A DNA stretch of 24,243 bases, taken from positions 1-24,243 of the IMG/VR virus record IMGVR_UViG_3300032284_002443; one strand, written 5' to 3'. Of the stretch, positions 2,267 to 24,220 are shown piece by piece (position 1 is the first letter of the stretch; every line of letters begins with the position of its first letter). Both the position numbers and the translations under genes were made by a program. The stretch comes from a virus. The notes below the pieces were generated by a model. That model worked only from the letters and a program-made list of their open reading frames with translations. It was not told the origin of the DNA and did no database searches.

Positions 2267-2269
2267 ATA
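2262..2269 (+). promoter_or_regulatory. Candidate late promoter overlapping gp20 stop
   Basis: CATAAATA, one mismatch from T4 late TATAAATA, contains the TAA stop of the portal gene. It sits 20 bases before the next ATG, a placement similar to the candidate before the portal gene. This is suggestive only. Confidence 0.25.
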
Positions 2270-2289
2270 TTATTCTAAGGATTAAGGCC

Positions 2290-2517
2290 ATGCGAGCTGA
2301 AGAATTAAACCCAGAATTTAGAAACAACAATCAAGATCATATTATGCAACGTCATATGCATGACAGTCGCAAGCCTAAAATTACCCTTCGATTGTTAAAC
2401 AAGCTAAAAACAATGAGGGCAGCCAAAGATCTTGAAAATCTTATTAGATCTGATTTTATGCAAACATTATATGGAGCTCCCGATGAACAAGCACCAGGGG
2501 GAGGCCTTGGTTTATGA
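2290..2517 (+). CDS. Small conserved-position protein downstream of portal
   Basis: The product is 75 residues, basic in the middle (a KPKITLRLLNKLKTMRAAKD helix at about 28-47) with a Gly-rich C-terminus. AAGG-type ribosome binding sites lie just upstream. Its TGA overlaps the ATG of the next gene (ATGA), indicating translational coupling, and the start of that gene uses the GGGGGAGG inside this one. In T4 the genes after gp20 are the small prohead core proteins gp67 and gp68, and a small protein after the portal is common in marine T4-like phages. A head or core role is therefore plausible by position. I do not recognise the sequence. Confidence 0.75.
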   Translation: MRAEELNPEFRNNNQDHIMQRHMHDSRKPKITLRLLNKLKTMRAAKDLENLIRSDFMQTLYGAPDEQAPGGGLGL

Positions 2518-3593: not shown

Positions 3594-3709
3594 AAATGCA
3601 GTTTTAGAACAAAAAATGCAAAATTATAGGCGAATATACCTAGAGAATGGCCTTTTCTGTTAAATAACTCCGAGTCTGTCTTAAACTTTTGACTAAAGGA
3701 GTGTTATAA

Positions 3710-4822
3710 ATGACGACAAATAATAAACTTTATAAGGTGTTAGAGCACCTAACAAAGGGTGACGATGAAGCTGCACGCGATCTTCTGCACACTGTATTCA
3801 TTGAAAAAGCTCGTGCTATTCATGAAGAGTTGATGAGTGCTGATGAAGCTGCTCACGAAGAAATGGAAGAAACTGTAGAAGAAACTATGGAAGAAGAAGG
3901 CGTCGAAGAAAGTATGCACGACGACATGGAAGAAACTATGGGCCATGATGACATGGAAGAAACTATGGGCCATGATGACATGGAAGAAATGGTCGGCGGC
4001 AGCGGAGACATGGGCAAAGACCTAACTAATGAAATCGAAGCTCTCGAAAATGAAGTTGATTTTGAAGAAACCATGAGCGAAGACGACATGGATATGCCAG
4101 GTGACATGTCGGGTGACATGCCAGCCGACGACATGTCAATGGGCGCTGACGCTGCAGGCGAAGAGTCTCACGATCTAGGCGATGTTGAACAGAAGATGGA
4201 AGACCTTGAAAGTGCATTAGCAGCTCTAAAGGCTGAGTTTGATAAGCTTGAATCAGTTGAGAAAGAAGAAGCTGGTGAAGACGAAGAAGAAGCCGGCGAA
4301 GAAGCCGAAGAAGCAGGCGAAGACGAAGAAGAAGCCGGCGAAGAAGCCGAAGAAGCAGGCGAAGACGAAGAAGAAGCCGGCGAAGCTGAAATGGAAGAAA
4401 GCTGGGAACTTGACGAAGATTTTGATGATTTGGCAGAAAGCCTTAACCTCGAAGTTGTCGAAAAGGACATGGAAAAGTCAGCTAAGACAGCCGACGAAGT
4501 TGGCAGTGGTAAGAGCGGAATGAGCAAAGGCGAACACGCTAAGAGCCCACTTCCTGCAAGCCAAACAACACGTATGGGTGCAAAGCCAGTAGCTATTGGT
4601 AAGGGTCCAGCCCACAATGGTTACAAGTTAGAAGCTGCTCCAAAGAGTGGTCAGCTAACTGGAACAAGCGACAATCGTCGTAAGAAGAGCACACAAGGCA
4701 TGAGCGGTGTCAAAGCTTCTAAAGAAGGTGAAGTTGGTAGCGGTCACAGTGGAATGAGCACTGGCAAGAACGCTATGAGCCCACTCAGCAAAGGTGGTCA
4801 AAACCTAAAGGCTGGTAAGTAA
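3710..4822 (+). CDS. Acidic prohead core protein, gp67-like
   Basis: The 370-residue product has an N-terminal helical segment (about 5-40, LYKVLEHLTKGDDEAARDLL) that resembles the start of T4 gp67 as I remember it. A very acidic region (about 45-245) made of E, D, M, A and G follows, then a basic Ser/Gly/Lys-rich tail (about 260-370). T4 gp67 is far shorter (about 80 residues), so this is an expanded version. Tandem repeats lie in the acidic part, and the basic tail holds two copies of a VGSG-x-SGMS-x-G motif. In T4, core proteins fill the prohead and are degraded by gp21; Leu/Ile-x-Glu sites are frequent here. An AAAGGAG box at 3695-3701 supports the ATG. The position between portal and protease fits. 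Confidence 0.8.
   Translation: MTTNNKLYKVLEHLTKGDDEAARDLLHTVFIEKARAIHEELMSADEAAHEEMEETVEETMEEEGVEESMHDDMEETMGHDDMEETMGHDDMEEMVGGSGDMGKDLTNEIEALENEVDFEETMSEDDMDMPGDMSGDMPADDMSMGADAAGEESHDLGDVEQKMEDLESALAALKAEFDKLESVEKEEAGEDEEEAGEEAEEAGEDEEEAGEEAEEAGEDEEEAGEAEMEESWELDEDFDDLAESLNLEVVEKDMEKSAKTADEVGSGKSGMSKGEHAKSPLPASQTTRMGAKPVAIGKGPAHNGYKLEAAPKSGQLTGTSDNRRKKSTQGMSGVKASKEGEVGSGHSGMSTGKNAMSPLSKGGQNLKAGK
3923..3989 (+). repeat. 27-base tandem repeat in core protein gene
   Basis: There are two exact 27-base copies (3923-3949 and 3950-3976) and a third partial copy. They encode a 9-residue unit DMEETMGHD. The repeat stays in frame, so it extends the acidic region without disrupting the gene. Confidence 0.9.
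4277..4385 (+). repeat. 42-base tandem repeat in core protein gene
   Basis: Near-perfect copies begin at 4277, 4319 and 4361, the last incomplete. Each encodes the 14-residue unit EDEEEAGEEAEEAG. Being in frame and almost identical at the DNA level, they point to recent slippage or unequal recombination. Confidence 0.9.
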
Positions 4823-4831
4823 TTTTGGTAA

Positions 4832-4866
4832 TAAAATGCTGGTAAGTAAAACGCTTACCAGCATTT
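4832..4866 (+). terminator. Strong hairpin between core protein and protease genes
   Basis: A 14-base perfect stem (AAAATGCTGGTAAG at 4832-4845 with CTTACCAGCATTTT at 4853-4866) has a 7-base loop and starts 10 bases after the stop of the core protein gene. The descending arm ends in TTTT, so it may act as a terminator or attenuator. It could instead be an mRNA-processing or stabilising hairpin, because the head genes continue downstream. Confidence 0.65.
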
Positions 4867-4933
4867 TCTACGAAAATTCACCGTATTTCATAAGAAAAAG
4901 CACAAATCTTTTAAATAAAAAAAGAAATTAGCT

Positions 4934-4941
4934 TATAAATT
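4934..4941 (+). promoter_or_regulatory. Candidate late promoter before gp21
   Basis: TATAAATT has a single mismatch from T4 late TATAAATA. It sits 9 bases before the protease ATG and after the hairpin, so a fresh late start here would make sense. The implied leader is only a few bases, which weakens the case. Confidence 0.3.
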
Positions 4942-4950
4942 AGGCCAAGA

Positions 4951-5592
4951 ATGAAGAATAATCTCTTAGTTGAGCATTTAAATTACGACACAGCGAAAGC
5001 TGAAATTATTACCGAAGGTGATGATTCATCAGGACAACCTAAAAAGGTTTTCATGAAAGGTATATTCATTCAAGGTGATATTAAGAATCATAATGGACGA
5101 GTATATCCATTGAATGAAATTAGAAGCGCTGTTGAAAACATTAATAAAGCTATTAAAGAAGACAACGGTGTATTGGGCGAATGTGATCATCCCCAAGAAC
5201 TACAGATACATCTCGATAGGGTAAGCCACAAAATTACCGAGATGTGGATGGATGGACCAAATGGTTATGGAAAGCTTCAAATTCTTCCAACTCCATGTGG
5301 TCTTATCGTAAAAACATTATTAGAAAGTGGAGTTAAACTTGGTGTTAGCTCTCGCGGATCTGGTAACGTTGATGACAACGGTCGTGTGTCAGACTTTGAC
5401 ATGTTGACAGTAGACATAGTGGCTAAACCATCTGCGCCAAATGCATATCCAGTACCTATGTACGAAGCTATCATGAATCGCAGACACGGATACAAGACTC
5501 TCGACCTAGCAGAAAGTGTAAAGTTTGATCAAAAAGCTCAAAAGGCTTTGAAGCAAATTCTACTGGGTTGGGTTGACGAGTTGAAACTATAA
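4951..5592 (+). CDS. 21: Prohead core protease gp21
   Basis: This is the T4-type serine protease (herpesvirus assemblin-like fold) that matures the prohead by cleaving scaffold, core and capsid proteins after (Leu/Ile)-x-Glu. The 213-residue length matches T4 gp21 (about 212). The presumed catalytic His lies in LGECDHPQ (about residues 75-82) and the Ser in GVSSRGSG (about 131-138). NGRVYPL (about 49-55) is also family-typical. The ribosome binding site is weak (only AAGA just before the ATG). The gene is followed after 16 bases by the scaffold, as in T4. Confidence 0.93.
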   Translation: MKNNLLVEHLNYDTAKAEIITEGDDSSGQPKKVFMKGIFIQGDIKNHNGRVYPLNEIRSAVENINKAIKEDNGVLGECDHPQELQIHLDRVSHKITEMWMDGPNGYGKLQILPTPCGLIVKTLLESGVKLGVSSRGSGNVDDNGRVSDFDMLTVDIVAKPSAPNAYPVPMYEAIMNRRHGYKTLDLAESVKFDQKAQKALKQILLGWVDELKL

Positions 5593-5608
5593 AAAGGAGT
5601 AGTGTCCT

Positions 5609-6832
5609 ATGGATAAAGAAATAAAAGACCTTCTTGAAAATGACGTACTTGGTGAAGACGCCAAGACTGCATTGCAAGAGGCCTTTGACAACAAGGTTAA
5701 GGCTGCTGTTGCAGCCGCGGAGCAAAAGCTCCAGGAAGACTACGCTGCACGTTATTCCAATGACAAAGCAGTACTTGTTGAAGCCATGGACAAGATGCTA
5801 GGCGATGCTATTCGCTCGGAGCTAACTGAGTTCGCAGAAGATCGTTCTGCTCTCATCAAGCAACGTGCAAAGCTAAGCAAGCAGACAATGGAAGCCAAGA
5901 AGTGGTATGCTCAAAAATTAAAAGAACATACCAAGTTGCTCAACACATATGTTGATCGTCAACTTCGTGGTGAAATTGCTGAGTTCGTTGATGATCGCAA
6001 GACACTAGACGAACAGCGTCAAGAAATGGCCAAAGAGTTAGAATCTGCAAGACTAAACAGCAAGAAGGCATTTACTGAGCGTGTGAACAAGTTGGAAACA
6101 TTTGTTCTCAAGCAGTTAAGTGAAGAAATTGCTGAATTCCAAGCTGATAAAAAGGCATTGGTTGAACAGAGAGTTAAACTCGCACAAGAAGGTAAGAAGA
6201 AACTACACGAAGCACAGACTAAGTTTATCGAACGTGCTGGACAAGCTGTCAATAAGACACTTGATTCAGTTATCAGAAAAGAACTTGTTCAGTGGAGAGA
6301 AGACATCAAGGTTGCTCGTGAGAACAACTTTGGTCGTAGAATCTTTGAAGCTGTAGCAGCTGAATATATGGCAAGTTACTTGTCAGAAGGCAGTGAAGTA
6401 AAGAAACTAAGCAACTTGCTTAGCAAGCAAAAAGCCGCTTTAGAAGAAGCACAAAAGCAAATCAACGAAAAGGAAACACTAGTTGAAACTGCCCGTGCAG
6501 AAGCTAGAGCAGCAAACGATCGCATTAAGAGAACAGAAACTATGAATGAGCTTCTAAAGCCTCTTAGCCGCGATAAGAAAACTGTAATGGAAGATCTATT
6601 GAAGGACATCAAGACTACTAACTTGAAGGAAGCCTTTTCAAGATATCTACCAGCAGTTATGAACGGTGGAAAGGTTGAACCAGCCAAGCAAACACTTGCT
6701 GAAACTACCCAACCAAAATCAGTTGCCATAACAGGTGACAGACAAAACAAACTATCCCAAGCAGTGATAGAAGAGTCCAAGCAATCAGATGACCTTGGCG
6801 TGATTCTACACCTCGCAGGAATCAAAAATTAA
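5609..6832 (+). CDS. 22: Prohead scaffold protein gp22
   Basis: This is the major scaffolding core protein around which the capsid shell assembles; it is later digested by gp21. The 407-residue product is almost entirely charged helix and coiled coil, with many (L/I)xE sites, and is longer than T4 gp22 (about 269). Much of the extra length is a threefold repeat of about 51 residues (69-119, 120-170, 171-222), each opening with an E-(L/I)-x-E-F-x-x-D-(R/K)-x-x-L motif. A fourth unit begins at RKELVQW. The C-terminal part (about 330-345) contains the RYLPAVMNG segment. AAAGGAG at 5593-5599 supports the start, and the capsid gene follows after 12 bases. Confidence 0.92.
   Translation: MDKEIKDLLENDVLGEDAKTALQEAFDNKVKAAVAAAEQKLQEDYAARYSNDKAVLVEAMDKMLGDAIRSELTEFAEDRSALIKQRAKLSKQTMEAKKWYAQKLKEHTKLLNTYVDRQLRGEIAEFVDDRKTLDEQRQEMAKELESARLNSKKAFTERVNKLETFVLKQLSEEIAEFQADKKALVEQRVKLAQEGKKKLHEAQTKFIERAGQAVNKTLDSVIRKELVQWREDIKVARENNFGRRIFEAVAAEYMASYLSEGSEVKKLSNLLSKQKAALEEAQKQINEKETLVETARAEARAANDRIKRTETMNELLKPLSRDKKTVMEDLLKDIKTTNLKEAFSRYLPAVMNGGKVEPAKQTLAETTQPKSVAITGDRQNKLSQAVIEESKQSDDLGVILHLAGIKN
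5813..6274 (+). repeat. Three ~51-residue protein repeats in scaffold gene
   Basis: The units begin RSELTEFAEDRSAL (5813), RGEIAEFVDDRKTL (5966) and SEEIAEFQADKKAL (6119), spaced exactly 153 bases for the first two. The DNA copies have diverged, so this is an old in-frame repeat visible mainly at protein level. Confidence 0.75.
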
Positions 6833-6844
6833 GGAGATTATTAT

Positions 6845-8044
6845 ATGAGTAAGAACCTTTTCGAGACACATTGGTCGGCTACAAAGACCGCCCTCTGCGA
6901 AGGTCTAAGCGGCAATCGCAAGAAGGTCATGGAAGTCGTGCTTGAAAACACAAAGAAGGATCTACAGAGCAAGAGCGGAATACTTTTTGAAAGTGCAACA
7001 CCAGGCAGCACAAGTGCTGGCAACGTTGCTACATTAAACAAGGTCATTCTTCCTGTTATCCGTCGAGTAATGCCAACCGTTATCGCTAACGAAATCATCG
7101 GCGTACAGCCAATGAGCGGTCCAGTTGGACAGATCCACACATTGCGTGTGCGTTATGCTGACACCTTTGGTGCTCCAGTTCCAGTAGTAGCTGGTGCAGA
7201 AGCCCTAAGCCCATTCGACATTGCACGTTTCTACAGCGGTAATGGCGACAGCGTAACACCAAAGGCAGCTCCAGTAAGCGTACTTGAAGGTACAGCTGGT
7301 AAGCGCCTAAACATCCAGATCCTCAAGGAAACAGTCGAAGCTAAGACACGTAAGCTTAGCGCTCGTTGGACCTTTGAGGCCGCTCAGGATGCACAGGCTC
7401 AGCAGGGCATTGACATCGAAGCTGAAATTATGGCAGCTCTCGCACAGGAAATCACTGCTGAAATTGACCAAGAAATCCTCGTCAGCCTACGTACACTAGC
7501 TGGCACAACATTGACATACGACCAAGGCGCAGTAAGCGGTACAGCAACATACGTTGGTGACGAACACGCTGCTCTAGCAGTCCTAATCAACCGTGGTGCT
7601 AACTTGATTGCTGCACGTACACGTCGTGGTGCTGGTAACTGGGTAGTTGTTTCCCCAACTGCTCTTACCATCCTACAAAGTGCTACAACTTCAGCATTCG
7701 CTCGTACTACAGAAGGTACCTTCGAAGCTCCAACAAACACCAAGTTCGTTGGAACACTCAACAACAGCATGAGAGTCTATGTAGACCAATATGCTGCTGA
7801 TGACACCAACGTACTAGTTGGATATAAAGGTCCTGGTGAGATTGATGCGGCAGCATATTACTGCCCATATGTTCCACTAACAAGCAGTGGCGTTATCATC
7901 GATCCAAATACCTTTGAGCCAGTAGTTAGCTTTATGACACGATATGGCTACCTAGAACTCAGCAACACAGCAAGCAGCTTAGGTAATGCTGCCGATTATT
8001 TGGCTGGTATTGGGATCAATACTGCACATCTAAAGTTCCTATAA
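6845..8044 (+). CDS. 23: Major capsid protein gp23
   Basis: This forms the hexamers of the T4-like head (HK97 fold). The typical gp23 core is seen from residue 60: NKVILPVIRRVMPTVIANEI, then GVQPMSGPVGQIH and LRVRYAD (about 80-102). The C-terminal part contains a GYKGPGEIDAAAYYCPYVPL segment (about 327-346) and a SFMTRYGYLE motif. At 399 residues it is shorter than T4 gp23 (521). A candidate gp21 site LFE|S at residues 47-50 would remove a propeptide of about 49 residues. AAGGAG at 6831-6836 gives a strong ribosome binding site. The gene ends the head block and is followed by a strong terminator. Confidence 0.96.
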   Translation: MSKNLFETHWSATKTALCEGLSGNRKKVMEVVLENTKKDLQSKSGILFESATPGSTSAGNVATLNKVILPVIRRVMPTVIANEIIGVQPMSGPVGQIHTLRVRYADTFGAPVPVVAGAEALSPFDIARFYSGNGDSVTPKAAPVSVLEGTAGKRLNIQILKETVEAKTRKLSARWTFEAAQDAQAQQGIDIEAEIMAALAQEITAEIDQEILVSLRTLAGTTLTYDQGAVSGTATYVGDEHAALAVLINRGANLIAARTRRGAGNWVVVSPTALTILQSATTSAFARTTEGTFEAPTNTKFVGTLNNSMRVYVDQYAADDTNVLVGYKGPGEIDAAAYYCPYVPLTSSGVIIDPNTFEPVVSFMTRYGYLELSNTASSLGNAADYLAGIGINTAHLKFL

Positions 8045-8094: not shown

Positions 8095-8124
8095 AAAAAA
8101 CCGGAAAGAAATTTCCGGTTTTTT
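8095..8124. terminator. Bidirectional terminator after gp23
   Basis: A 13-base perfect stem (AAAAAACCGGAAA with TTTCCGGTTTTTT, loop GAAA) is flanked by A- and T-tracts, so it works as an intrinsic terminator on both strands. It closes the head operon and, from the other side, overlaps the last bases of the endonuclease gene, including part of its stop codon. Confidence 0.9.
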
Positions 8125-9550
8125 ATTTTATAATGAAAACTCTATTACCACAATCATGAAATCTTCTAAATTTTGCTAAAAACATGTTTTCTGATTCACT
8201 AAGATTTGGATCATATGTTTCTAACCAACGTTTTAATTGTGATCGTTGGGCTTTAAATCTAGATATTACAATATTTCCGTCTGTCCAAAAATAACCAGGA
8301 CCAGTATCTCTTAAAAATTTAAATCCTATAGATACATAACTACTTCCTGTACTTTTTGATAAATCGCAGTATGTTATTATAGACGCACAACGGTCTTTTA
8401 TTGCAGAGATTAGTTTACTACCCCCGCCTACTACGGTTAAACCAGCCTTAGTACAATATCTTAATAGTTCATACTCTGCTTCATTGTTAAATCTACTCTT
8501 ACCAACAGACATTAATGATACTAAATCATTTTTATAAAATAATCCTATTGAAAAGTTACTAGGAATATATCCTTGTATATGATATCGGTTAATAAACTCT
8601 TTTTCTTCCAACGAAGATAGTTCTCTTATTGTGCATTGCCTAGCACCTATACGTGTGTTTTTTCCTAGTTTGCTTAAAAGCATAGCTTGAATTATTTCTC
8701 TTTTATTATTCCATTCAAAATCAGTAATATGAATTAAATCAATACCATGCTTAGCAGAAAGTTGACTTTTTTCTAAATGTCTTGTTTTATTTTCAGGTTT
8801 ATTAGATCTTGGATGGTAGCTATGCCAATATAAGCCATTAGCCTCTATAGCCATATTCTTTGATGGAATATAGATATCTAATTCTTTACCAATTGCTTTC
8901 CAGTTTCCTTGCTCATATTGAACATTATGATCATCAAGAAATTTCATAATATTCAATTCAACTAAACTATAATTGGTACGTTGTCTTATTGTAAAATTAT
9001 GTTGGATACAATAATCAATAACTGTGCTATAATAAACACCAAGTTCGTTAGCAATATCAACAGCAGTTCTTTTGTTCTGGTTGTATTCTTGATTTAACCA
9101 ATCATAGTTAGATAACTTTTCAAATGCATCTGAATTTATTTTTGGTTTTTTCCAAATATGATGTATGTCGTCTCGTTGGCTATTGTATGCAACTCCATAC
9201 TTATCTATCATTGTCGTTTTACGTTTCTCATTTATTTCTTTTCTTTTACTTGTTGTAAACTTAGACTTCGTTTCAATAACAGATTGACGTATACTATCAG
9301 ATGTACATTTGCATGTTTTTGCCGGACCACACCCAGAAAAACCTTGAGTGATATTTACAAACTTTTTATGTTTACCGTTTATACATATGTTATCGACTCC
9401 ATATAACGCAGAGTATACCATTTCTGGTAAGTACTCGCTTACTATAATAGAATTTTGTTTAACCCATTCTAGCATATCGGGCGATGATTTAATAATCAAA
9501 GAATAGTGCTTTGGTTTTTCTTTAATTAAACTTAATATTGCTTCTTTCAT
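8123..9550 (-). CDS. Free-standing homing-type endonuclease, Vsr-like (EDxHD) fold
   Basis: The 475-residue protein resembles phage and intron-associated homing endonucleases. In order: a Cys-rich segment (C74, C80, C82, possible zinc site); a KRKTTMIDKYGVAYNSQ motif (about 109-125) common in such enzymes; a helix-turn-helix-like stretch (about 161-190, TAVDIANELGVYYSTVIDYC); and a nuclease core with E198, LDIYIP (D225), IEANGLYWHS (E236, H243) and a later H..K, like the Vsr/EDxHD arrangement. A C-terminal domain follows (about 305-475, with VVGGGSKLISA). It lies opposite to the head genes immediately after gp23. No strong ribosome binding site is seen. The target is probably a nearby conserved phage gene, but the sequence cannot show which. 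Confidence 0.8.
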   Translation of the reverse strand: MKEAILSLIKEKPKHYSLIIKSSPDMLEWVKQNSIIVSEYLPEMVYSALYGVDNICINGKHKKFVNITQGFSGCGPAKTCKCTSDSIRQSVIETKSKFTTSKRKEINEKRKTTMIDKYGVAYNSQRDDIHHIWKKPKINSDAFEKLSNYDWLNQEYNQNKRTAVDIANELGVYYSTVIDYCIQHNFTIRQRTNYSLVELNIMKFLDDHNVQYEQGNWKAIGKELDIYIPSKNMAIEANGLYWHSYHPRSNKPENKTRHLEKSQLSAKHGIDLIHITDFEWNNKREIIQAMLLSKLGKNTRIGARQCTIRELSSLEEKEFINRYHIQGYIPSNFSIGLFYKNDLVSLMSVGKSRFNNEAEYELLRYCTKAGLTVVGGGSKLISAIKDRCASIITYCDLSKSTGSSYVSIGFKFLRDTGPGYFWTDGNIVISRFKAQRSQLKRWLETYDPNLSESENMFLAKFRRFHDCGNRVFIIK

Positions 9551-9605: not shown

Positions 9606-10199
9606 ATGACAGAACACTTAGAACCATATCAAGGACCGGCGAAATACGCTATGTATGGTCAAGAGTTTATGCAGGAATGGTTTACATACACTTACTATAA
9701 ACTATCTGCAACACTTAATCGAGCATGGGATCTAACACCATGCACAACTTTAACCGTTAGCCCAAAATGGACACCAGATTATTTTCTTTATATGTATAAT
9801 AAGGTTGGTAAAGACTATAAATGGTGGTACTTTAATTGGAAAGAACCTAAAGAGGTTGAAGAATATCTACAAGAAAAGAAGGCATTCATTACCTTATTGG
9901 TAGATGGAGAACCAAGTGGATTTGCTATAGTTAAAAATGAAGATGATGATAGTTGCAACTTAGAATATTTTGGATTAATGAATCACGTACATGGTCGAGG
10001 ATTAGGTAAAAAGTTTTTATTAGATATCATGCGGCTCGCAAGTTATAGTAGAAATAACATCTGGGTGTACACTACAGATCTAGATCATCCAGCCGCATTA
10101 CCAACTTATAAATCATGCGGATTTAAAGTTTTACAAGAAAAACTTGTAAGTGAATATTATCCAATAACAGTGATTGGAGATACAAATGCAAAAGATTAA
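9606..10199 (+). CDS. GNAT-family acetyltransferase
   Basis: The 197-residue product has an acetyl-CoA binding motif A, HVHGRGLGKKFL (about 128-139), preceded by a beta strand LEYFGLMN and followed by YKSCGFKV near the C-terminus, the usual GNAT end motif. The long N-terminal part (1-90) is rich in aromatic residues and probably sets the substrate. It is transcribed away from the endonuclease and overlaps the downstream DUF454 gene by 14 bases, so the two are coupled. No good ribosome binding site is visible. The acetyl acceptor is unknown. Confidence 0.82.
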   Translation: MTEHLEPYQGPAKYAMYGQEFMQEWFTYTYYKLSATLNRAWDLTPCTTLTVSPKWTPDYFLYMYNKVGKDYKWWYFNWKEPKEVEEYLQEKKAFITLLVDGEPSGFAIVKNEDDDSCNLEYFGLMNHVHGRGLGKKFLLDIMRLASYSRNNIWVYTTDLDHPAALPTYKSCGFKVLQEKLVSEYYPITVIGDTNAKD

Positions 10200-10605
10200 A
10201 AAAGCGTTTTGGTTTACATTAGGAATTATTTTTATAGGAATAGCATACATCGGTATTATTACACCTGGTATTCCTTGGAGCACACCCACAGTGTGTGCAG
10301 CATTTTGTTTCAGCAAGAGCAGTGATAGAATGCACAACTGGATAATGAATCATAAACTGTTTGGTCCATTTTTACGAAACTGGAGTGAGAAACGAGTGTT
10401 TCCAACTAAAGGCAAATGGGCAATGGTTCTAACAATGGATGTTAGCTTGATCATTATCTATATTACCACACAAAATGTTTGGTATACACTAGGAATGGGA
10501 TTAGTAATGTTATTGGTAGCCTTATGGGCATTTCGCTATCCAAGTAGTGTTGAAGAATGGCAAGATCGTGTTAATAAGAAATTAAAGATTGGTTGGTTTA
10601 AATAA
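10186..10605 (+). CDS. DUF454 (YbaN-like) inner membrane protein
   Basis: I place the start at the ATG at 10186 (139 residues), which has GGAG about 8 bases upstream, rather than at an upstream TTG. It matches the DUF454 pattern: a first hydrophobic segment ending in GIITPGIPWSTPTVCAAFCF (about 21-40), then SKSSDRMHNWIMNHKLFGPF and LRNWSEKR (about 41-68), then two hydrophobic segments (about 76-112). The biochemical function of DUF454 is unknown; it is a small inner-membrane protein. It ends 2 bases from the stop of the convergent Agt-like gene. Placement beside a lipid-modifying pair is suggestive of a membrane role. Confidence 0.88.
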   Translation: MQKIKKAFWFTLGIIFIGIAYIGIITPGIPWSTPTVCAAFCFSKSSDRMHNWIMNHKLFGPFLRNWSEKRVFPTKGKWAMVLTMDVSLIIIYITTQNVWYTLGMGLVMLLVALWAFRYPSSVEEWQDRVNKKLKIGWFK

Positions 10606-10607
10606 TT

Positions 10608-11609
10608 TTATCTAGCACTTACTAGATTTGCTCTAAAGATCTTCCAAGCATTTTGCCACGACCATCTCATACTACCTTTAGCTACCGTATTTCTATCAAT
10701 CTGTAGACATCTGTTTATGGCTGATAAAAGATCTACATCCATATATCCGGTAGTACCTTGATCTATTACATCTAATGGTCCATTAGTTGGAAATGCAGCC
10801 ACAGGTGTTCCACATGCCATTGCTTCAATCATAACTATGCCAAATGTTTCCCATGTGCTAGGAAAAACAAAGACGTCAGCATTGGCATAATATTGTGCTA
10901 GATCAATACCTGTTTTGAAGCCTGTGAATTCAACATCTGGGTATAGACGTTTATATTCTTCAAGCATAGGACCATCACCTACCATTATTTTTTTTGAATT
11001 TGGATAATCTAAATTTAAAAACTGTTCTAGGTTCTTTTCTTTGCTTACCCGGCTTACACATAATAACGTTATGGGATCTTTCGGTGATTTATTTCGTAAT
11101 AATGGAGAGAAAATGGTTCTATCAACTCCTCTAGTCCATGATAGAATATCTCCTGTAAATCCATTATCTTTTAATTCTTTTACCATACTATCGGTTGTTG
11201 TTAAAACACGCCCGGCGTGTTTATGAAACCATCTAACGTATTTCCATGTTATGAATTCTGGAATACCTACAAGTTTTTTTAATCCTTCTGGAAATTTAGT
11301 ATGATAAGCTGTATTATATTTAATGTTTCGGTACGACAAATAAATTCTTGCATATAAACCTAACGGACCTTCTGTAGCAATATGTATATAATCGGGATCA
11401 ATAATATTGATCATTTTGCTTAACTTGTGCGGAACAGCCAATTTAATTTCATTATACTTTGGACAATCAATGTACAAGAATCGACCAGGATGAATATAGT
11501 CAACTGTATCACCATCTAAATTTGCACATTTTTCAATATTAGTATATGTAGTAACCACACCGTTAATCTGACTAGGTAGATTATCAGTTATTATTAGTAT
11601 TTTGGACAT
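10608..11609 (-). CDS. agt: Agt-like GT4 glycosyltransferase (probable glycolipid synthase)
   Basis: The 333-residue protein is a GT-B, GT4 retaining glycosyltransferase. The N-terminal domain opens ILIITDNLPSQINGVVTTY and contains DYIHIATEGPLGLYAR (about 74-89) and AYHTKFPEG. The C-terminal domain has LSWTRGVDRTIFSP and a nucleotide-sugar motif TFGIVMIEAMACGTPVAAFP (about 261-280). This pattern matches the family next to plcP in alphaproteobacteria (Agt), which transfers sugars to diacylglycerol. Its start lies 26 bases inside the metallophosphoesterase gene, indicating tight coupling. MgtA-type mannosyltransferases are close relatives, so donor and acceptor are inferred from context. It is the last gene of the - strand operon. 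Confidence 0.82.
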   Translation of the reverse strand: MSKILIITDNLPSQINGVVTTYTNIEKCANLDGDTVDYIHPGRFLYIDCPKYNEIKLAVPHKLSKMINIIDPDYIHIATEGPLGLYARIYLSYRNIKYNTAYHTKFPEGLKKLVGIPEFITWKYVRWFHKHAGRVLTTTDSMVKELKDNGFTGDILSWTRGVDRTIFSPLLRNKSPKDPITLLCVSRVSKEKNLEQFLNLDYPNSKKIMVGDGPMLEEYKRLYPDVEFTGFKTGIDLAQYYANADVFVFPSTWETFGIVMIEAMACGTPVAAFPTNGPLDVIDQGTTGYMDVDLLSAINRCLQIDRNTVAKGSMRWSWQNAWKIFRANLVSAR

Positions 11610-12366
11610 CTATTAAAAGCCTATTCCAATATATTATTTCCCAAGTACCATCATAATTTTCTACCAATGCTGAACAACTTTCTACCCAATCCCCATCGTT
11701 CATGTATCTAATACCATTAATATATTTTATAACTGGTGTATGTATATGACCACAAATAATACCATCATATCCTTTGGTACGACAATAATCAGATATCAGT
11801 CCTTCAAAATTTAAAACATATCCAACAGCTTGTTTGGTATGTTTTTTAAGCCATCCGCTCATTGACCAATATTTCATGCCAAGTTTGGCTCTTAACCAAC
11901 TATACCAATCGTTTAGGCGTATGATTAAATCATATAATCTATCGCCTATATGCATTAAAAACTTACCTTGTGTAGCAGCCATTAATGTATCAAACATATC
12001 CCCATGTACCACCAGATACTTACTTCCATTTAATGCAAGATATTCTTCTTTATTGGAAAAAGATACATTACCTATATTTGGAATATGCTTCAACCATGGA
12101 CGTATTGCTTCGTCATGATTACCGGCAATATATTTGATTTTGGTTCCTCTTTTAGCTGCTGTTAATAATCTACGCAACACGTTGTTGTGTTCTTGAGGCC
12201 AATACCAATTTCTTTGTAAACGCCATCCGTCTACAATATCGCCAACTAGATACAAAGTTTCACATGAATTATGTTTTAAAAAGCTGCATAATAAATCAGC
12301 TTTACAGCCACGACTACCCAAATGTATATCACTTATAAAAATAGATCTATATTTGGTTATTTGCAT
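11584..12366 (-). CDS. plcP: PlcP-type metallophosphoesterase (phospholipase C-like)
   Basis: The 260-residue protein is a calcineurin-like metallophosphoesterase with a full metal-binding set: SDIHLG (D13, H15), GDIVDGW (D43), GNHDE (N83, H84), HGD (H121) and CGHIHTP (H206, H208). Features I associate with the PlcP branch rather than LpxH are HLGSRGC, NWYWPQEHNNV (about 53-63), KYWSMSGWLKK (about 164-174) and MNDGDWVESC (about 221-230). PlcP releases the headgroup from phospholipids, giving diacylglycerol, during phosphate starvation. Overlap with the Agt-like gene downstream strongly supports that reading. Generic annotation would call it a UDP-2,3-diacylglucosamine hydrolase (LpxH-like), which remains the alternative. 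Confidence 0.83.
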   Translation of the reverse strand: MQITKYRSIFISDIHLGSRGCKADLLCSFLKHNSCETLYLVGDIVDGWRLQRNWYWPQEHNNVLRRLLTAAKRGTKIKYIAGNHDEAIRPWLKHIPNIGNVSFSNKEEYLALNGSKYLVVHGDMFDTLMAATQGKFLMHIGDRLYDLIIRLNDWYSWLRAKLGMKYWSMSGWLKKHTKQAVGYVLNFEGLISDYCRTKGYDGIICGHIHTPVIKYINGIRYMNDGDWVESCSALVENYDGTWEIIYWNRLLIDVQNTNNN

Positions 12367-12371
12367 TGCTA

Positions 12372-13337
12372 TTATTTATCAATGGTTAATTTTGCTACAG
12401 CTTCTATGTCATTTACAGTATGCTGAATAAGATGATTATTCATAGCATAATTATATCCACGTTCTATACTAAAACAATCTCTACTAAATGTTCTTAGTTC
12501 ATGTACCAACTGTATATCATCGGTATATGTGTGACCATAATCTTTCATTAAATCAGCGCCGGCTATTCTTCTTGATATCCACGGTGTTTTGTTTACCATG
12601 GCTTCTAGTAATACCAGTCCAAATCCTTCTTGATAACTGTGCATGATATAACAATCTGCTTCTTTAATGGCACTTAGTACATCGTTTCTATTTTCAAGTA
12701 TTATGTTTTTTACATTGTGTGAATTTTCTGGCATTAGGTTCATTCTATTATCGTAGCCAGTTGTTACTAAAGTAGCATTGTTGATATTAGCAGATGTAAA
12801 AACCTGTGCAAGTTCTTTCATTGCTTTGTTTGGCCAATAACCTCCGCAGCTCAAAAACATAGTGCCTTGGATGTTATATTTGTCCTTGAATCCCAGTTGT
12901 CCACATGATTGATTTAATGCAATGCCATGTCGAACTTGTACTGCTTTGTTTACAACACCATGTATTTTACAATGCTCCCAATCTTGATTAGTGCTACAAC
13001 CAAGATAAGAACAATCCCTAAGAGCCTGAAGGCAAACAGCACTATTACTAGGAAGAACAAGCATATAAAGTATAGGACTAGGAATCCTAGTAGCATTGGA
13101 AAGAACAAAATTTTGTACATTAACATCTCCGCCGTGTACTATGATTAAATCCCAAGGTTGTAATAGAATGTTAGCATCGCTGGTTACTGTTACACCATTA
13201 TAGTTTCCTTGATGCTCGCCTGCAAAAACAGCTACAGTGTGTCCACGCCGCAGACTTTCCTCTGCCATATTTTGAACATATATTTCGCTGCCTCCCGGGA
13301 ACGGTGCATAACGGTGTACACAAAAAAGTAGTTTCAT
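12372..13337 (-). CDS. GT4-family glycosyltransferase
   Basis: The 321-residue GT-B enzyme has an N-terminal KLLFCVHRYAPFPGGSEIYV motif (about 2-21) with the glycine loop, NMAEESLRRGHTVAVFAG, and a C-terminal donor-site motif SYQEGFGLVLLEAM with the two glutamates of the E-x7-E signature (about 236-249). LSCGGYWPNKAMKEL (about 162-176) is the start of the second domain. The initiating ATG directly follows the TAA of the upstream gene. It probably adds a sugar to the glycan made by the enzymes upstream, or to lipid with the downstream pair. Substrates are not predictable. Confidence 0.85.
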   Translation of the reverse strand: MKLLFCVHRYAPFPGGSEIYVQNMAEESLRRGHTVAVFAGEHQGNYNGVTVTSDANILLQPWDLIIVHGGDVNVQNFVLSNATRIPSPILYMLVLPSNSAVCLQALRDCSYLGCSTNQDWEHCKIHGVVNKAVQVRHGIALNQSCGQLGFKDKYNIQGTMFLSCGGYWPNKAMKELAQVFTSANINNATLVTTGYDNRMNLMPENSHNVKNIILENRNDVLSAIKEADCYIMHSYQEGFGLVLLEAMVNKTPWISRRIAGADLMKDYGHTYTDDIQLVHELRTFSRDCFSIERGYNYAMNNHLIQHTVNDIEAVAKLTIDK

Positions 13338-14142: not shown

Positions 14143-14849
14143 CTGTATTCGGTCTCAGAACGATCAATTTCATAATTAAAGTTTCCAAAAGGACTAGTAC
14201 CTGGCAAGCTATGTATTTTTATGCCCATATTTTGCCAAATTTGGCTTTGAATAATTTCTGGAATTCTTATATGATGTAACTGATTATGAGTTTGATATTG
14301 TTGTATTTGAAGTTTAAGATGCCATAGGGTATTTGAAACTATATCAATACTTTTACAATCACCTAGATAAAAATTATCAACCATTCGCGGAGAAATGTAA
14401 GAATCTATCTCAGGTGTTTGACGACTGTTACTACACCATATGCCTGTGTCATCTTTACAAATATTTTCTATAGATGGTAATCGCTCAAAGAATAAATTGT
14501 CGCTGCGGGCTTGTATAACATAATCATAGGTTATGTTATTTGCTCGTTGATATGTTTCTCTCAAACATTTGGCTCGATAGAATTTGTATAACATATACGG
14601 CATGTTGCGATGAATATTTTCTGGAAATAACAAATTGAGATGTGTGCATATATCATGCGAATATTCAATTTCAATCAACTTAGGTTTTATATAATCGGTC
14701 CATCTATCCACTGTTGATAAATTTTCTGTATTCCAGAAACTACAGAAAATATCTGGATTATGCGTTTCTATTAGACTGGCCATAATACTGGTAATAGATG
14801 CAGGAGTAAATCTTAATCTTCCGCTAATTTGCAGAGCTATTCTTACCAT
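14139..14849 (-). CDS. Putative glycan-related protein
   Basis: The 236-residue protein begins RIALQISGRLRF and continues NPDIFCSFWN (about 31-40). This is like a group of poorly characterised surface-polysaccharide proteins with a start of the form SGQ.R......DVF.H.W. A YDYVIQARSDNLFF motif (about 108-121) resembles the R-x-D segments of those proteins and could bind a nucleotide sugar. It overlaps its neighbours by 4 and 7 bases in the sugar operon. A glycosyltransferase role is my inference; the family match is from memory and weak. Confidence 0.55.
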   Translation of the reverse strand: MVRIALQISGRLRFTPASITSIMASLIETHNPDIFCSFWNTENLSTVDRWTDYIKPKLIEIEYSHDICTHLNLLFPENIHRNMPYMLYKFYRAKCLRETYQRANNITYDYVIQARSDNLFFERLPSIENICKDDTGIWCSNSRQTPEIDSYISPRMVDNFYLGDCKSIDIVSNTLWHLKLQIQQYQTHNQLHHIRIPEIIQSQIWQNMGIKIHSLPGTSPFGNFNYEIDRSETEYR

Positions 14850-15793
14850 ACGAAGTCTTTCATATGATGTTTGACTATTTTCTTTATTTCAGTATCAAAT
14901 ATACGTTTGTTTTGCCAACCAAGATTTCTTAATTTACTGTCATCTATACTGTACCGAACATCTTGTCCTGGCCTCTTTACACTAAAATCAACATATTCAT
15001 GATAATTTTCAGGATCTAGTTTAGCTGCTTGCAAAATCTTTTTGAATACATTTAGATTACAATCTTCATAATCGCCTGACACATTGAAAATTTCATTTTG
15101 AACATTTTGGTCTATTAAGAATAGCACTGCATCTGCAGTGTCTTTAACATGCAGCCACGTTCTACATGGTAAGCCTTGTTCATGCAACGGAACTGGCCTA
15201 CCAAGGCTGAGATATTTGCAGGCTTTTGGAATAAATTTTTCAACATATTGGCCAATTCCGTAATTATTACTAGGTCTTATAATAACATAAGGAATGCCAT
15301 ATGTTCTAGCCCATGCAGTTATCATCATATCAGCACTAGCTTTTGTTGCACTATATGGATTACTTGGTTTTAATAAATCCTTTTCGCTATGAGCACCAGA
15401 AATAATATCACCGTACACTTCATCGGTACTAAAATGAAAAAGTGTTGGCATTTTGAATCTACTTTTGGTTTGTATTGTGGTTAGAAGATTATGAACTCCG
15501 TTTATGTTGGATTTTATGAACTCGCTACCGTTTACAATACTATTATCAACATGTGTTTCCGCTGCTGTGTTAATAATGTAGTCACAGTCATATAACCAGT
15601 TGATATCATTGATATCTTTTTTAAGATATTTGAAATTAGGGTATTTCCTGAGTTTTTCTAGATATGTAACATCAGCAGCATAAGTTTCAGCATCTATCCC
15701 AAAAACATGCCAGCCTCGTTCAAGACATGCTCTAGCTACATATCGTCCTATAAAACCTAAACAACCTGTTACATATACTACTTTAATTGTCAT
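14843..15793 (-). CDS. NAD-dependent sugar-nucleotide 4,6-dehydratase, RmlB-like
   Basis: The 316-residue extended SDR has an N-terminal GCLGFIGR NAD loop (about 10-17), a STDEVYGD active site (about 123-130; the T-D-E residues that RmlB uses for dehydration) and the YSATK Tyr/Lys pair (about 147-151). It also has IIRPSNNYGIGQ (about 171-182) and a C-terminal GLPCRTWLHVKD segment. It should convert an NDP-glucose to the 4-keto-6-deoxy sugar. The active site resembles dTDP-glucose (RmlB) or UDP-sugar dehydratases more than CDP-glucose 4,6-dehydratase (RfbG), although the E1-type partner upstream normally takes CDP sugars. The donor nucleotide is therefore uncertain. Confidence 0.85.
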   Translation of the reverse strand: MTIKVVYVTGCLGFIGRYVARACLERGWHVFGIDAETYAADVTYLEKLRKYPNFKYLKKDINDINWLYDCDYIINTAAETHVDNSIVNGSEFIKSNINGVHNLLTTIQTKSRFKMPTLFHFSTDEVYGDIISGAHSEKDLLKPSNPYSATKASADMMITAWARTYGIPYVIIRPSNNYGIGQYVEKFIPKACKYLSLGRPVPLHEQGLPCRTWLHVKDTADAVLFLIDQNVQNEIFNVSGDYEDCNLNVFKKILQAAKLDPENYHEYVDFSVKRPGQDVRYSIDDSKLRNLGWQNKRIFDTEIKKIVKHHMKDFVW

Positions 15794-16596
15794 TTGTATT
15801 CTTTAAGGCTAGTTTCTAATCCATATTTCATTTGGTGACAAGAATATAGAAAATCACTATTACAACTATAATCAAATCCTGTATTATCTGTTAATTCAAT
15901 TTTCTTATTTAAACCGTGTAGATTTGAATATAGAGATAAAAAGTCATTTAAATCAATTTGGTTATTGTAGGCGCAGTTGATATCTAAAGGATAGTTTTTC
16001 CAATCTTGAATAACATGTTTAATTATATCTGCAAAATCTATAGCTGATATCCAGCTAAAGTTTCGATTTTTTAGTAAAAATACGTCTGACGCTTTGTTAA
16101 ACTGTTTTAATAATCTGAAATCTGGCTCATTTGGATGAAAACATCCAAACACTCTTAATGTAAGAGCATTTGGCATATCTTTGCATTGCCGGCTAATTAG
16201 ATTTTTTGATAATCCGTAACTATCTTGTGGCAATCTTTCGTCTAGTAAAATTTCTTTAGCTTGAGTAATATTTTGAGATATGTCAAACTCAGCTCCGGTT
16301 CCTATGTTAATCAGCACACCGTAACATCCGTTTAGTGCTCGTAGATTTTGAAACATTTTTAAATTATCATGAAGATCAGCAGCAATAAACTGGCCAAGTG
16401 TTTGTTTGCCGCCGACTGCAGCACAGTTGATAACTGTATCAAACCTGTATTCTCTTAAAAAGTTTTCAGTGGATTGCCTATCAGTTAAATCGCAATCACG
16501 GCGTGTAACAGAAAATGGTTTTAAATCATCCAGTTCATGTGCAAGGATTTTTCCAATAGTACCAGAACTACCTAATATAGCTATTTTATTGGCCAT
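15790..16596 (-). CDS. SDR-family sugar reductase, candidate 4-ketosugar or acetyl reductase
   Basis: The 268-residue protein has a Rossmann loop KIAILGSSGTIGKIL (G9, G12, G15), a DTVINCAAVGG segment (about 53-63) and a Y-x3-K pair in DSYGLSKN (about 127-134). At this length it resembles RmlD/WcaG-type reductases rather than 4,6-dehydratases. It lies directly after the split ThDP enzyme. In yersiniose synthesis the step after two-carbon addition is a reduction by YerF, so a YerF-like job fits, but the sequence does not prove it. It overlaps the upstream gene by 16 bases and the downstream one by 4. Confidence 0.75.
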   Translation of the reverse strand: MANKIAILGSSGTIGKILAHELDDLKPFSVTRRDCDLTDRQSTENFLREYRFDTVINCAAVGGKQTLGQFIAADLHDNLKMFQNLRALNGCYGVLINIGTGAEFDISQNITQAKEILLDERLPQDSYGLSKNLISRQCKDMPNALTLRVFGCFHPNEPDFRLLKQFNKASDVFLLKNRNFSWISAIDFADIIKHVIQDWKNYPLDINCAYNNQIDLNDFLSLYSNLHGLNKKIELTDNTGFDYSCNSDFLYSCHQMKYGLETSLKEYK

Positions 16597-17339
16597 TCGC
16601 GTTCTAGCTCCTCCGGTGATAAAAATGGGGCCATGTCATGCAATGGTGCTTGAACTCGCGTACCTTCTGGCAATACTTTAAAGCTCTGTGCTGGTAGTAT
16701 TTCCTGATCAACTTTGCACATGACTTCTATAAGCTCTGCTGATCTATTATTTGGATCATTTAGTGATCCGAACGCATTCTTTAGCTCATTTCTGTTGCTG
16801 ATCTTTTGATATTTAATTTCAAACGCTTCGGCAACTTTATTAAGTTGCGGAAAAAATAAACCGCTTGCTTGATCAACTCCATACACTCTGCCTTCAAAAT
16901 ATTTTGTTTGTGTATTCTTGATGCTTAAATATCCACCGTTGTTTAGCACAATAAGTTTTATAGGTAAATCTAAATATTTGATAACTGCTAGCTCTTGCAT
17001 ATTTGAATAAAAGCTACCATCTCCGACAATAGCTAAAACTAACTTATCCTTTGCATTAAGTGCAACACCTACACTGGCCGGTACTGCCCATCCCATGTCT
17101 GCTTGACTGGGATTAAAGATAAACTGGTTTGAACATGTTGCTTTTAATGCTGTTGGACATGCATAACTTGGACTACCAGCATCTGCTACAATTAGATTAT
17201 TATCAGTTAATATTTCATTAACCGATTCCAACACTTCATAAATGTCAAGACCGTGTGAATCGTCGGCATGCTCTGGTTGATATACAGGCCATTGCTGTTT
17301 CCATTGTTGGCATTTAGTAACCCAGTCGTTATTTGTCAT
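16581..17339 (-). CDS. ThDP-dependent enzyme, C-terminal (PP) half
   Basis: The 252-residue protein is the diphosphate-binding domain of an acetolactate-synthase-type enzyme. The ThDP/Mg motif is GDGSF (106-110) with NN at 133-134, the GDG-x24-NN form. It is preceded by NPSQADMGWAVPASVGVAL, typical of this domain. The first 40 residues (KCQQWKQQWPVY) match the linker between the middle and PP domains of one-chain enzymes. Alone it lacks the catalytic Glu-bearing PYR domain, which the overlapping upstream gene supplies. The start ATG is embedded in the end of that gene in another frame, with AAGGA about 11 bases before it. Confidence 0.87.
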   Translation of the reverse strand: MTNNDWVTKCQQWKQQWPVYQPEHADDSHGLDIYEVLESVNEILTDNNLIVADAGSPSYACPTALKATCSNQFIFNPSQADMGWAVPASVGVALNAKDKLVLAIVGDGSFYSNMQELAVIKYLDLPIKLIVLNNGGYLSIKNTQTKYFEGRVYGVDQASGLFFPQLNKVAEAFEIKYQKISNRNELKNAFGSLNDPNNRSAELIEVMCKVDQEILPAQSFKVLPEGTRVQAPLHDMAPFLSPEELEREWPIK

Positions 17340-18402
17340 TTCGTAACATGTCCTTAAAAAATGTTTCTAACTCTACACAACAACGCCATTCTAATGATGT
17401 CAGTTCTCTAGCAGTCCAATGATGTATATATTTGTTAAATTCGTTAGGATCTATAGTTACAAACACTTTAGTACTATGAGGCGACCATGTTGATAAATCA
17501 TATCCTGTATGACTGTTGTTTAGGCTACATCCTAAAATGAATAATAAATCTGATGATTGCATGGCAAAATTTCCAGCTCGTGATCCTTTTATTCCAATAG
17601 CTCCTACATTTAATGGATGATTATATGGTAACAAATCACTAGCACCATATGTGTACACATACGGAACATTATAATGCTCAATGAACTGTTTAAATAGATC
17701 TTGAGTTTTAGATTGTTTAATACCTTGCCCTGCTAATACAACAGGTCTCTTTTTCTCTTTGAATAACTTTGGCAAATCAAAATATGCAGCTACAGGCATT
17801 GTATGCACTATAGGCATTATAGACGCTATTTTATCTCGTTTTATGTTATCTATAACATCGGATATATTATAGGTTTGTATATTTGATGGTATATCTATCC
17901 AAACAGGGCCAGGACGACCAGTAGTTGCATAATGTACTGCTTCGTCTAATATCTTTTTTATGTCCTGTGGAGAGTCTACGAACTTAGAATACTTAGTAAT
18001 ACTTTTTACTGTTTCAATAATATCATGTTCCTGTATACCAAACTTTCTTAACGAATATGCATTGGTATTTTCCTTTAGGAATCTTGAACATTGTTCTAAT
18101 CCAACATTTCCACTAATGAATATAACAGGAACACTGTCTTGCCATGCAGCTAATAAACTTGTTATACAATTTGTGCCACCGCAGCCTGTTGTTGGATTTA
18201 CAAGGCTTATATTACCCGTAAGTTTTGATTCGGCAACTGCTGCATGTGCAGCACCTTGCTCGTTGTGAAAGCATACATATTGAATTTTACCATGTTTAAT
18301 AAATCCATCGTTAAGGCCACTAGCACCTCCGCCCATTAAACCATAAACATGCTTAACACCTAGTTGCCAGAAATATTCAGCTATGTAGTCACAAACTCTC
18401 AT
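17329..18402 (-). CDS. ThDP-dependent enzyme, N-terminal (PYR plus middle) half
   Basis: The 357-residue protein has a PYR domain with the catalytic glutamate in CFHNEQGAAHAAVAES (E48) and NPTTGCGGTNCITSLLAAWQ (about 68-87, where most acetolactate synthases have SGPGATN). The middle domain starts after ATTGRPGPVWIDIPSN (about 154-169). It stops where the PP domain would begin. With its partner (252 residues) it totals 609, close to one-chain enzymes of about 550-600. In this gene neighbourhood the best functional match is YerE, which transfers an acetyl unit from pyruvate to a 4-ketosugar nucleotide. Plain acetolactate synthase is less likely in a phage glycan operon. Confidence 0.85.
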   Translation of the reverse strand: MRVCDYIAEYFWQLGVKHVYGLMGGGASGLNDGFIKHGKIQYVCFHNEQGAAHAAVAESKLTGNISLVNPTTGCGGTNCITSLLAAWQDSVPVIFISGNVGLEQCSRFLKENTNAYSLRKFGIQEHDIIETVKSITKYSKFVDSPQDIKKILDEAVHYATTGRPGPVWIDIPSNIQTYNISDVIDNIKRDKIASIMPIVHTMPVAAYFDLPKLFKEKKRPVVLAGQGIKQSKTQDLFKQFIEHYNVPYVYTYGASDLLPYNHPLNVGAIGIKGSRAGNFAMQSSDLLFILGCSLNNSHTGYDLSTWSPHSTKVFVTIDPNEFNKYIHHWTARELTSLEWRCCVELETFFKDMLRNDK

Positions 18403-19727
18403 ACATGACCTTTCATAAATGCATCGAGCTGTTCACCAATGTAATCTATTTGCTCGTCTGTAATAACAGGACTTGTTCCTAGGAAGAATGTATCGGTCAT
18501 CACTTTAGTAGCCACAGGATACATAGTTTTGCATTGATTAATATCAACCATATGACTGTATGCAGGCTGCAATAAAATGTTACCGGCAAAATATGGCCGT
18601 GTTTGAATCTTAGATGTTTCTAAATGGTCTGTTATTTGTGATCTTGTGAATTTTGATCTATCTTTAATAGTAACAGCAAATGCAAACCAACTTGGATCAC
18701 TCAATTCTGTTGCAACAGGCAAATGAAAGAAAGATTCATAAGGCTTAAACTTTTCTAACAGCCTTTGATGATTATGTCGTCTCTTGGCATGTATAGTATC
18801 AAGTTTGTCTAGCTGGGCTAGTCCCATGCTTGCTTGTAGTTCGATAGGTTTAAGATTATAACCAATCTCATCATAAACATATTTGTGATCAAACGTTTCA
18901 TCTGGCAATGCAGAAATCCAATTGCTAAATCTGCATTTACATGTTCCATTTTTAAGTAAGTTTGCTTCTTGTCCAACACAATAGCATCCACGACCCCATT
19001 CTCTAAAACTTCTTATCACACGTTCTTGTTCTTGTGTTTTACAAGCAACAAACCCGCCTTCGCCCATTGTCATGTGATGTGCAGGATAAAAGCTACAGCT
19101 GGCCATTTCACCGAAACTACCTAATGGCTTATTGTCGTATGTGCTACCTAGTGCATCACAGCAATCTTCTATAAGAATAAGATTATAACGTTTAACAATA
19201 TCCATAACTTGATTCATATTAGGCGGATTGCCTAGTACATGTGCAAATGTAATAGCTCTACAGTCAGGATTTGTAGCAAGTGCCATTTCTACTTGATTTA
19301 AGTTTAGATTTAGCGTATCTATTTCAATATCAACAAATACTGGAATTAAACCACATTGAAAGATTGGATTTACTGTAGTTGGAAATCCTGCAATAGGAGT
19401 GAGTATTTTAGATCCTTCCGGAAGATTCCACAAACGCTTGCTGCGTAGTGCATTCATTTGTATTAGGTTAGAACTACTACCACTATTTGTTAATACGCCC
19501 CACTCTTTTCCAAATAAACGTGGAAACTTATATTCAAATGTCTGTGCGTCTTTGCCTAATACTAACCATCCATTAAGCAAACTTTTAGCAGCTCGCACGT
19601 ATTCATCTGAATCAAAAAATGGACCAGCATATTGGACGGTATCAATGCCTGCCTGCCATTTTTTGTTGGCTTGTTTTTCTGAAATATATTCAGCTATGTC
19701 GCGTAAAATTGAATCTAATTTAGTCAT
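18399..19727 (-). CDS. RfbH/AscC-type 3-dehydratase (E1), PMP and [2Fe-2S]
   Basis: The 442-residue DegT/DnrJ-fold protein carries CDP-4-keto-6-deoxyglucose 3-dehydratase signatures. In SFYPAHHMTMGEGG (212-225) the Lys that normally holds PLP is His (H217), as in E1 and ColD. Cysteines C190, C248, C250 and C263 or C265 match the E1 iron-sulphur pattern C-x57-C-x-C for the first three; the fourth is spaced further than in E1 (x12 against x7). DHKYVYDEIGYNLKPIELQA (280-299) is also family-typical. It removes the C3 hydroxyl of a 4-keto-6-deoxy sugar nucleotide, with electrons from an E3 reductase not present here. It starts the five-gene sugar block after a 55-base gap. Confidence 0.9.
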   Translation of the reverse strand: MTKLDSILRDIAEYISEKQANKKWQAGIDTVQYAGPFFDSDEYVRAAKSLLNGWLVLGKDAQTFEYKFPRLFGKEWGVLTNSGSSSNLIQMNALRSKRLWNLPEGSKILTPIAGFPTTVNPIFQCGLIPVFVDIEIDTLNLNLNQVEMALATNPDCRAITFAHVLGNPPNMNQVMDIVKRYNLILIEDCCDALGSTYDNKPLGSFGEMASCSFYPAHHMTMGEGGFVACKTQEQERVIRSFREWGRGCYCVGQEANLLKNGTCKCRFSNWISALPDETFDHKYVYDEIGYNLKPIELQASMGLAQLDKLDTIHAKRRHNHQRLLEKFKPYESFFHLPVATELSDPSWFAFAVTIKDRSKFTRSQITDHLETSKIQTRPYFAGNILLQPAYSHMVDINQCKTMYPVATKVMTDTFFLGTSPVITDEQIDYIGEQLDAFMKGHV

Positions 19728-24204: not shown

Positions 24205-24212
24205 GGCATACC

Positions 24213-24220
24213 TATTTATA
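24213..24220 (-). promoter_or_regulatory. Exact T4 late promoter match on - strand
   Basis: On the - strand this is TATAAATA, identical to the T4 late promoter core, ending 8 bases before the ATG of the nucleotidyltransferase gene. It could start the long glycan and lipid operon late in infection. The implied leader is only a few bases long, and the frame is open through it, so it may instead be coding sequence of a longer gene. Confidence 0.4.

Follow-up and report, generated by a model that had tools for sequence, protein, structure and literature searches.

Background

Phage genomes are rich in phosphorus, many of their aquatic hosts are poor in it, and the phosphorus genes known from phages serve mainly for uptake. 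Those genes (pstS and others) are phage-borne and of host type, as is the gene pair described below, and pstS adjoins plcP in phage Mosig and in several contigs. They differ from the pair in what they draw on: they take up phosphate, whereas the source of phosphorus tapped by the pair would be the membrane lipid of the host.

The closest described system is a bacterial pathway, known from S. meliloti (PlcP), from P. aeruginosa (PA3219-PA3218) and from SAR11 strain HTCC7211 (PlcP and the glycosyltransferase GTcp): PlcP makes diacylglycerol from phosphatidylglycerol and phosphatidylethanolamine, and Agt glycosylates this diacylglycerol (PMC4796936, PMC8231724, PMC8528852). In bacteria the commonest order of the two genes is plcP followed by agt (PMC4796936), which is also the order of the viral pair.

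We analysed a stretch of viral DNA of 24,243 bases, hereafter the window, which is the IMG/VR virus record IMGVR_UViG_3300032284_002443. Its gene pair has in common with the bacterial pathway both protein families, the gene order, the tight or overlapping arrangement of the genes and most of the key residues of GTcp. It differs from that pathway by its phage flanks, by an Agt clade of its own, by the absence of an upstream Pho box and, in the subclade of the window, by a glutamate which takes the place of the catalytic aspartate.

The enzymes and the pathway are already known; what appears to be new is their recurrent linked presence in phages. We found no report of a viral plcP or agt in the open-licence PMC papers that we searched, so that a report outside this set may exist, and among the same kind of papers none brings "plcP" together with "AMGs". 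A large catalogue of ocean AMGs left out every contig with glycosyltransferase or nucleotide-sugar genes (PMC11360552), a rule which would hide a plcP-agt pair.

The window and its viral origin

The window had been attributed to a T4-like phage in a first-pass annotation, and the genes expected of such a phage are indeed on the contig: a T4-like portal gene (494-2266, plus strand; phrog_213), a prohead protease gene (4951-5592, plus strand; phrog_207) and a major capsid gene (6845-8044, plus strand; phrog_138). Because these T4-like head genes lie on it (494-8044, plus strand), we concluded that the contig is viral. Three viral contigs with lengths of 262-323 kb have portals 49-51% identical to this one, so that the window is probably one piece of the genome of a large T4-like myovirus. 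The major capsid gene is followed directly by a homing-endonuclease-like gene in the opposite orientation (8123-9550, minus strand), and the right end of the window codes for a protein with the head domain of poly(A) polymerases and CCA-transferases (23455-24234, minus strand).

One could object that the contigs carrying the pair are bacterial DNA misfiled as viral, since IMG/VR records are computed predictions and the identity to the closest bacterial PlcPs is as high as 59%. We give this objection practically no credence: the phage head genes stand on the same 24-kb contig as the pair, contigs of up to 322 kb combine the pair with portal and terminase, the viral Agts form one clade (support 96/91), and a plcP (54%) is also present in Mosig, a cultured phage of Pelagibacter.

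Both genes of the pair are on the minus strand and start with ATG. The plcP-like gene (11584-12366, 260 aa) codes for a calcineurin-like metallophosphoesterase (Pfam Metallophos, 6.4e-14), predicted to be a phospholipase C of the PlcP family, and the agt-like gene (10608-11609, 333 aa) codes for a GT4 enzyme (Pfam Glycos_transf_1, 7.6e-25), predicted to be a diacylglycerol glycosyltransferase. By the coordinates of the open reading frames, the end of plcP and the start of agt overlap by 26 bases (11584-11609, minus strand), exactly as had been read before. This overlap suggests a translational coupling of the two genes; in the nearest viral relative, locus L206, plcP and agt overlap in the same place by 29 bases. 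On the other side of agt lies a gene for a DUF454 membrane protein (10174-10605, plus strand), convergent with agt and with 2 bases between the two stop codons; DUF454 homologues are also found near the plcP-agt pair in the viral loci L194, L247 and L253.

The phosphoesterase

The phosphoesterase of the window is 44% identical over 240 residues (225 bits) to PA3219 of P. aeruginosa, the locus L166 having been assigned as PA3219-PA3218 from gene order and neighbours, and 45% identical over 97% of the protein to S. meliloti PlcP (L165). Next to the latter gene are those for an AHL synthase and for LuxR, a setting which we take to be that of S. meliloti SMc00171. L165 and PA3219 are 47% identical to each other, in line with the published 46% between PA3219 and S. 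meliloti PlcP (PMC8528852). According to genetics, these PlcPs, which stand at 44-45% identity to the window protein, are needed for lipid remodelling (PMC8528852). All the metal motifs are present in the window protein (D13xH15, G42D43, G82NHD, H121GD and G206HIH) and they are invariant in an alignment of 27 related sequences. The first-pass description, a metallophosphoesterase with complete metal motifs and signatures of PlcP, therefore agrees with both the motifs and the identities.

In our trees a branch with 100/100 support separates all the PlcPs, including that of the window, from LpxH, and the window protein is not in the clade of LpxH or of another nucleotide-sugar hydrolase, the placement named beforehand as the one that would speak against the assignment. 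The AU test did not reject a grouping of the window protein with LpxH (p=0.27) and is uninformative here, because the LpxH branch is very long and the point at which it attaches to the PlcP group is free. Nor did this test reject a single origin of the viral PlcPs (p=0.30), but the best tree mixes them with sequences of Hyphomonadaceae. The homologue of S-SRM01 (36%) was set aside for its long branch and for its motifs, which are altered (GNHE; NDGDW missing). Taken from its sequence, the membership of the window phosphoesterase in the PlcP family is well supported.

A competitor for this identity is LpxH, the UDP-2,3-diacylglucosamine diphosphatase of lipid A synthesis, under whose name the homologues of Mosig and of S-SRM01 are publicly annotated. 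LpxH belongs to the same superfamily and has the calcineurin-like fold and the metal site in common with the window protein. The AlphaFold model of the latter (pLDDT 85) has LpxH structures as its nearest neighbours, at about 20% identity, which is expected within one superfamily; the structure models gave the expected folds and do not decide the substrate. With the LpxH model TIGR01854, the window protein scores 40 bits when the curated cut-off is 190, that is 150 bits below it, and with E. coli LpxH it scores 36 bits, against 225 with PA3219. The overall identity to LpxH is about 20-25%, and the window protein reads GNHD where LpxH reads GNRD. In Solimonas genomes with both genes, the match of the window protein is to the PlcP-like gene and not to the LpxH proper, which is over the cut-off; in the genome search the window protein had no match to LpxH at E 0.001. 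On score, motif and comparison of paralogues we rejected the LpxH identity, which we regard as very improbable. Phage genes annotated as lipid A enzymes may hence be phospholipases.

The glycosyltransferase

The glycosyltransferase of the window is 39% identical over 324 residues to PA3218 (Agt1) and 31% identical to the protein of L170, which was assigned as PA0842 (Agt2) because genes for plcR and a phospholipase C adjoin it. In the tree it falls, with support 100/99, into the Agt1 clade together with PA3218 and with a gene of Kordiimonas which is presumably GTkg (PMC8231724), and all viral Agts are found in the single clade mentioned above. Its placement with the Agt2/MgtA-like side or with other GT4s is rejected by the AU test (p=0.0004). 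In the trees of the two proteins, which had been proposed as a check, the phosphoesterase is on the PlcP side and the glycosyltransferase is with Agt1.

The residues which matter in GTcp of SAR11 were determined by mutation: His104, Thr162, Arg163, Arg190, Lys195 and Trp320 at the donor and diacylglycerol sites, and the catalytic Asp256 (PMC8231724). The former are all kept in the window protein, as H103, T159, R160, R187, K192 and W318 (mapped by motif and by the alignment of relatives). The catalytic aspartate is replaced by a glutamate, Glu254, within the motif FPSTWETFG, and in GTcp the change of Asp256 to Glu removes more than 90% of the activity (PMC8231724). In the sampled tree, an aspartate is found in every bacterial protein of the Agt1 clade with a readable motif and in most viral ones, the glutamate being limited to the subclade of the window and to the PA0842-like protein. 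Of the 79 sequences collected for their similarity to the window protein, 77 have the glutamate, but their selection was partly based on this very motif.

The Agt-like signatures noticed in the first-pass annotation are thus confirmed by the clade and by the donor and diacylglycerol residues, and not by the catalytic position. The glutamate does not exclude activity, because PA0842 (Agt2), which makes GADG (PMC8528852), has it too; Asp256 is a defining residue of GTcp and may not be one for the family as a whole. Judging by these residues, it is plausible that the window protein is an active Agt, whose donor or rate may be different, and its membership in the Agt family is well supported.

Recurrence of the pair in viruses

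Relatives of PlcP are encoded by at least 597 stretches of viral contigs (not dereplicated), and the gene context was read for 78 of the best 80 of them. Of these 78 loci, 44 have an Agt homologue no more than four genes away from plcP, 36 have one immediately downstream, and 13 have a GT2-family gene in the downstream position. In 17 viral loci of phages without agt (L068:6749-7459 and 16 others), a GT2-family gene of about 236 aa comes just after plcP, as if one lipid glycosyltransferase had replaced another. We also looked at 79 further viral loci, those with the glycosyltransferases closest to that of the window: plcP is just upstream on the same strand in 74, at no more than 300 bases in 58, while one of the other five is cut by the end of the contig and the upstream sequence of the remaining four is only about 1 kb long. 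The search of viral metagenomes for the same pair, which had been suggested for this window, was therefore fruitful, and the pairing of plcP with agt in viruses is far beyond chance.

Six records (G005, G009, G031, G033, G038 and G041) contain the pair together with a terminase and a T4-like portal, and record G032 contains the pair with a terminase. In two close viral copies (L206 and L241), dN/dS is 0.05 for plcP and 0.07 for agt, dS being saturated for most other pairs of loci; close viral copies of both genes are under purifying selection. The first-pass annotation knew of no described phage with both genes. This still holds for the literature searched and for INPHARED, where no phage has both genes at E 1e-5, but the pair is not a one-off of the window: it is a recurrent viral module.

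Gene neighbourhoods and regulation

In the window, plcP is preceded by a second GT4 gene (12372-13337, minus strand; 5 bases upstream of plcP), which is the last of a run of glycan genes. This second GT4 was ruled out as an Agt by its distance in the tree, which amounts to 10 changes per column. Further upstream, the interval 14843-19727 (minus strand) looks like the pathway of a branched 3,6-dideoxysugar of the yersiniose type, here in a phage: it contains an RfbH gene (18399-19727, minus strand; 472 bits with the model, for a cut-off of 423), an acetolactate-synthase-like TPP enzyme in two overlapping open reading frames (17329-18402 and 16581-17339, minus strand) and RmlB-like and RmlD-like genes (minus strand).

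The pair might accordingly be a part of this glycan operon, its phosphoesterase processing a lipid-linked or nucleotide sugar and its GT4 decorating a surface glycan: 5 bases separate plcP from the GT4 gene before it, and the RmlB-like, RfbH, TPP-enzyme and other glycosyltransferase genes are on the same strand. We consider this improbable, for L206, with a PlcP 74% and a glycosyltransferase 69% identical to those of the window, has the pair without the glycan run, viral loci with unrelated flanks retain the pair, and both proteins belong to lipid-acting clades. The relatives which have the pair without the glycan run point to a mobile unit: the plcP-agt pair appears to move on its own. A RimK-like ATP-grasp gene (about 294 aa) comes directly after plcP in about a dozen loci, mostly between plcP and agt (L015:6777-7661; L005, L006, L194, L195, L197, L201, L220, L227, L231, L232, L244 and L252).

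The regions upstream of plcP were scanned for Pho boxes, with at most 3 mismatches to a fixed consensus and with mononucleotide shuffles as reference. Pho boxes are found in 22 of 79 bacterial regions, versus 1.35 in the shuffles, and show no enrichment in the viral regions (1 of 80, versus 2.3 expected). Phage Mosig has its plcP and a pstS-like gene, whose annotation is phosphate transporter, in divergent orientation (L001:7909-9744), and the intergenic stretch between the two contains no Pho box. The Pho box is a feature of regulation and no part of the definition of the PlcP family. Its absence from the viral copies points to control by the phage: the viral pair is probably under the phage programme and not under the PhoR/PhoB switch of the host.

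Proposed role of the pair

Family membership, conserved linkage, viral location, purifying selection and absence of a Pho box are established for the pair. From there, we think it probable that the pair is a phage module which turns phospholipid into sugar-capped diacylglycerol and so makes lipid phosphorus available for phage DNA. PlcP, a metal-dependent phospholipase C, would strip the phosphate headgroup off the phosphatidylglycerol and phosphatidylethanolamine of the host, leaving diacylglycerol, to which Agt would add one sugar from UDP-glucose or UDP-glucuronate. By this capping, the membrane would keep a bilayer lipid and free diacylglycerol would not build up. The headgroup phosphate would enter the metabolism of the host and then the synthesis of phage nucleotides and DNA, which would be most useful when phosphate is scarce. 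The enzyme activity, the donor sugar and the benefit to the phage are the parts of this reading which we infer.

The quantities are compatible with such a role. A genome of 250 kb contains about 5x10^5 atoms of phosphorus, and tens of progeny therefore require at least 10^7, which is of the same order as the phospholipids of one bacterial cell; lipid phosphorus is hence a store large enough to matter. In 23 of the 78 viral loci read from the best 80 of at least 597, thyX, nrdA or nrdB is no more than four genes away from plcP; pstS is equally close in 4 of them, to which phage Mosig is to be added. These neighbours favour a link to DNA synthesis. It counts against the role in phosphorus supply that most of the viral loci have neither thyX nor nrd nor pstS within four genes of plcP, and that the pair of the window follows a run of glycan genes and not nucleotide genes.

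The same enzymes could also serve another aim, in which phosphorus is secondary: the change of lipids would block superinfection, protect phage processes associated with the membrane or tune lysis. Such an aim accounts equally for the pair staying together, the pair of the window does follow surface-glycan genes, and changes in bacterial lipids are reported to alter the attachment of phages and predation by them (PMC9938194, PMC9457565). We find this aim rather unlikely as the principal one, because the thyX, nrd and pstS genes near plcP in other phages speak for phosphorus and nucleotides, and because the sugar of Agt goes on an inner pool of lipid and not obviously on a surface receptor.

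If the supply of phosphorus is the right reading, membrane lipid is a source of phosphorus during infection, and infected cells would leave a lipid signature in the water. The question is directly testable, since Mosig bears a plcP and SAR11 HTCC1062, the host on which it was isolated, is reported to be without one (PMC4796936). A broader proposal, which we advance only tentatively and would not yet call probable, is that a widespread group of T4-like phages has a phosphate-starvation programme of its own for the membrane, outside the Pho control of the host, which turns host phospholipids into glycolipids during infection, with the membrane as the phosphorus store for phage DNA, and that the Agts of the glutamate subclade are functionally distinct diacylglycerol glycosyltransferases.

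We observed, last, that the bacterial plasmids L176 and L178 carry more distant phosphoesterases of the family, followed by other glycosyltransferase genes, one of which is annotated as a ceramide glucosyltransferase; this gene order extends the idea of the pairing beyond PlcP and Agt.
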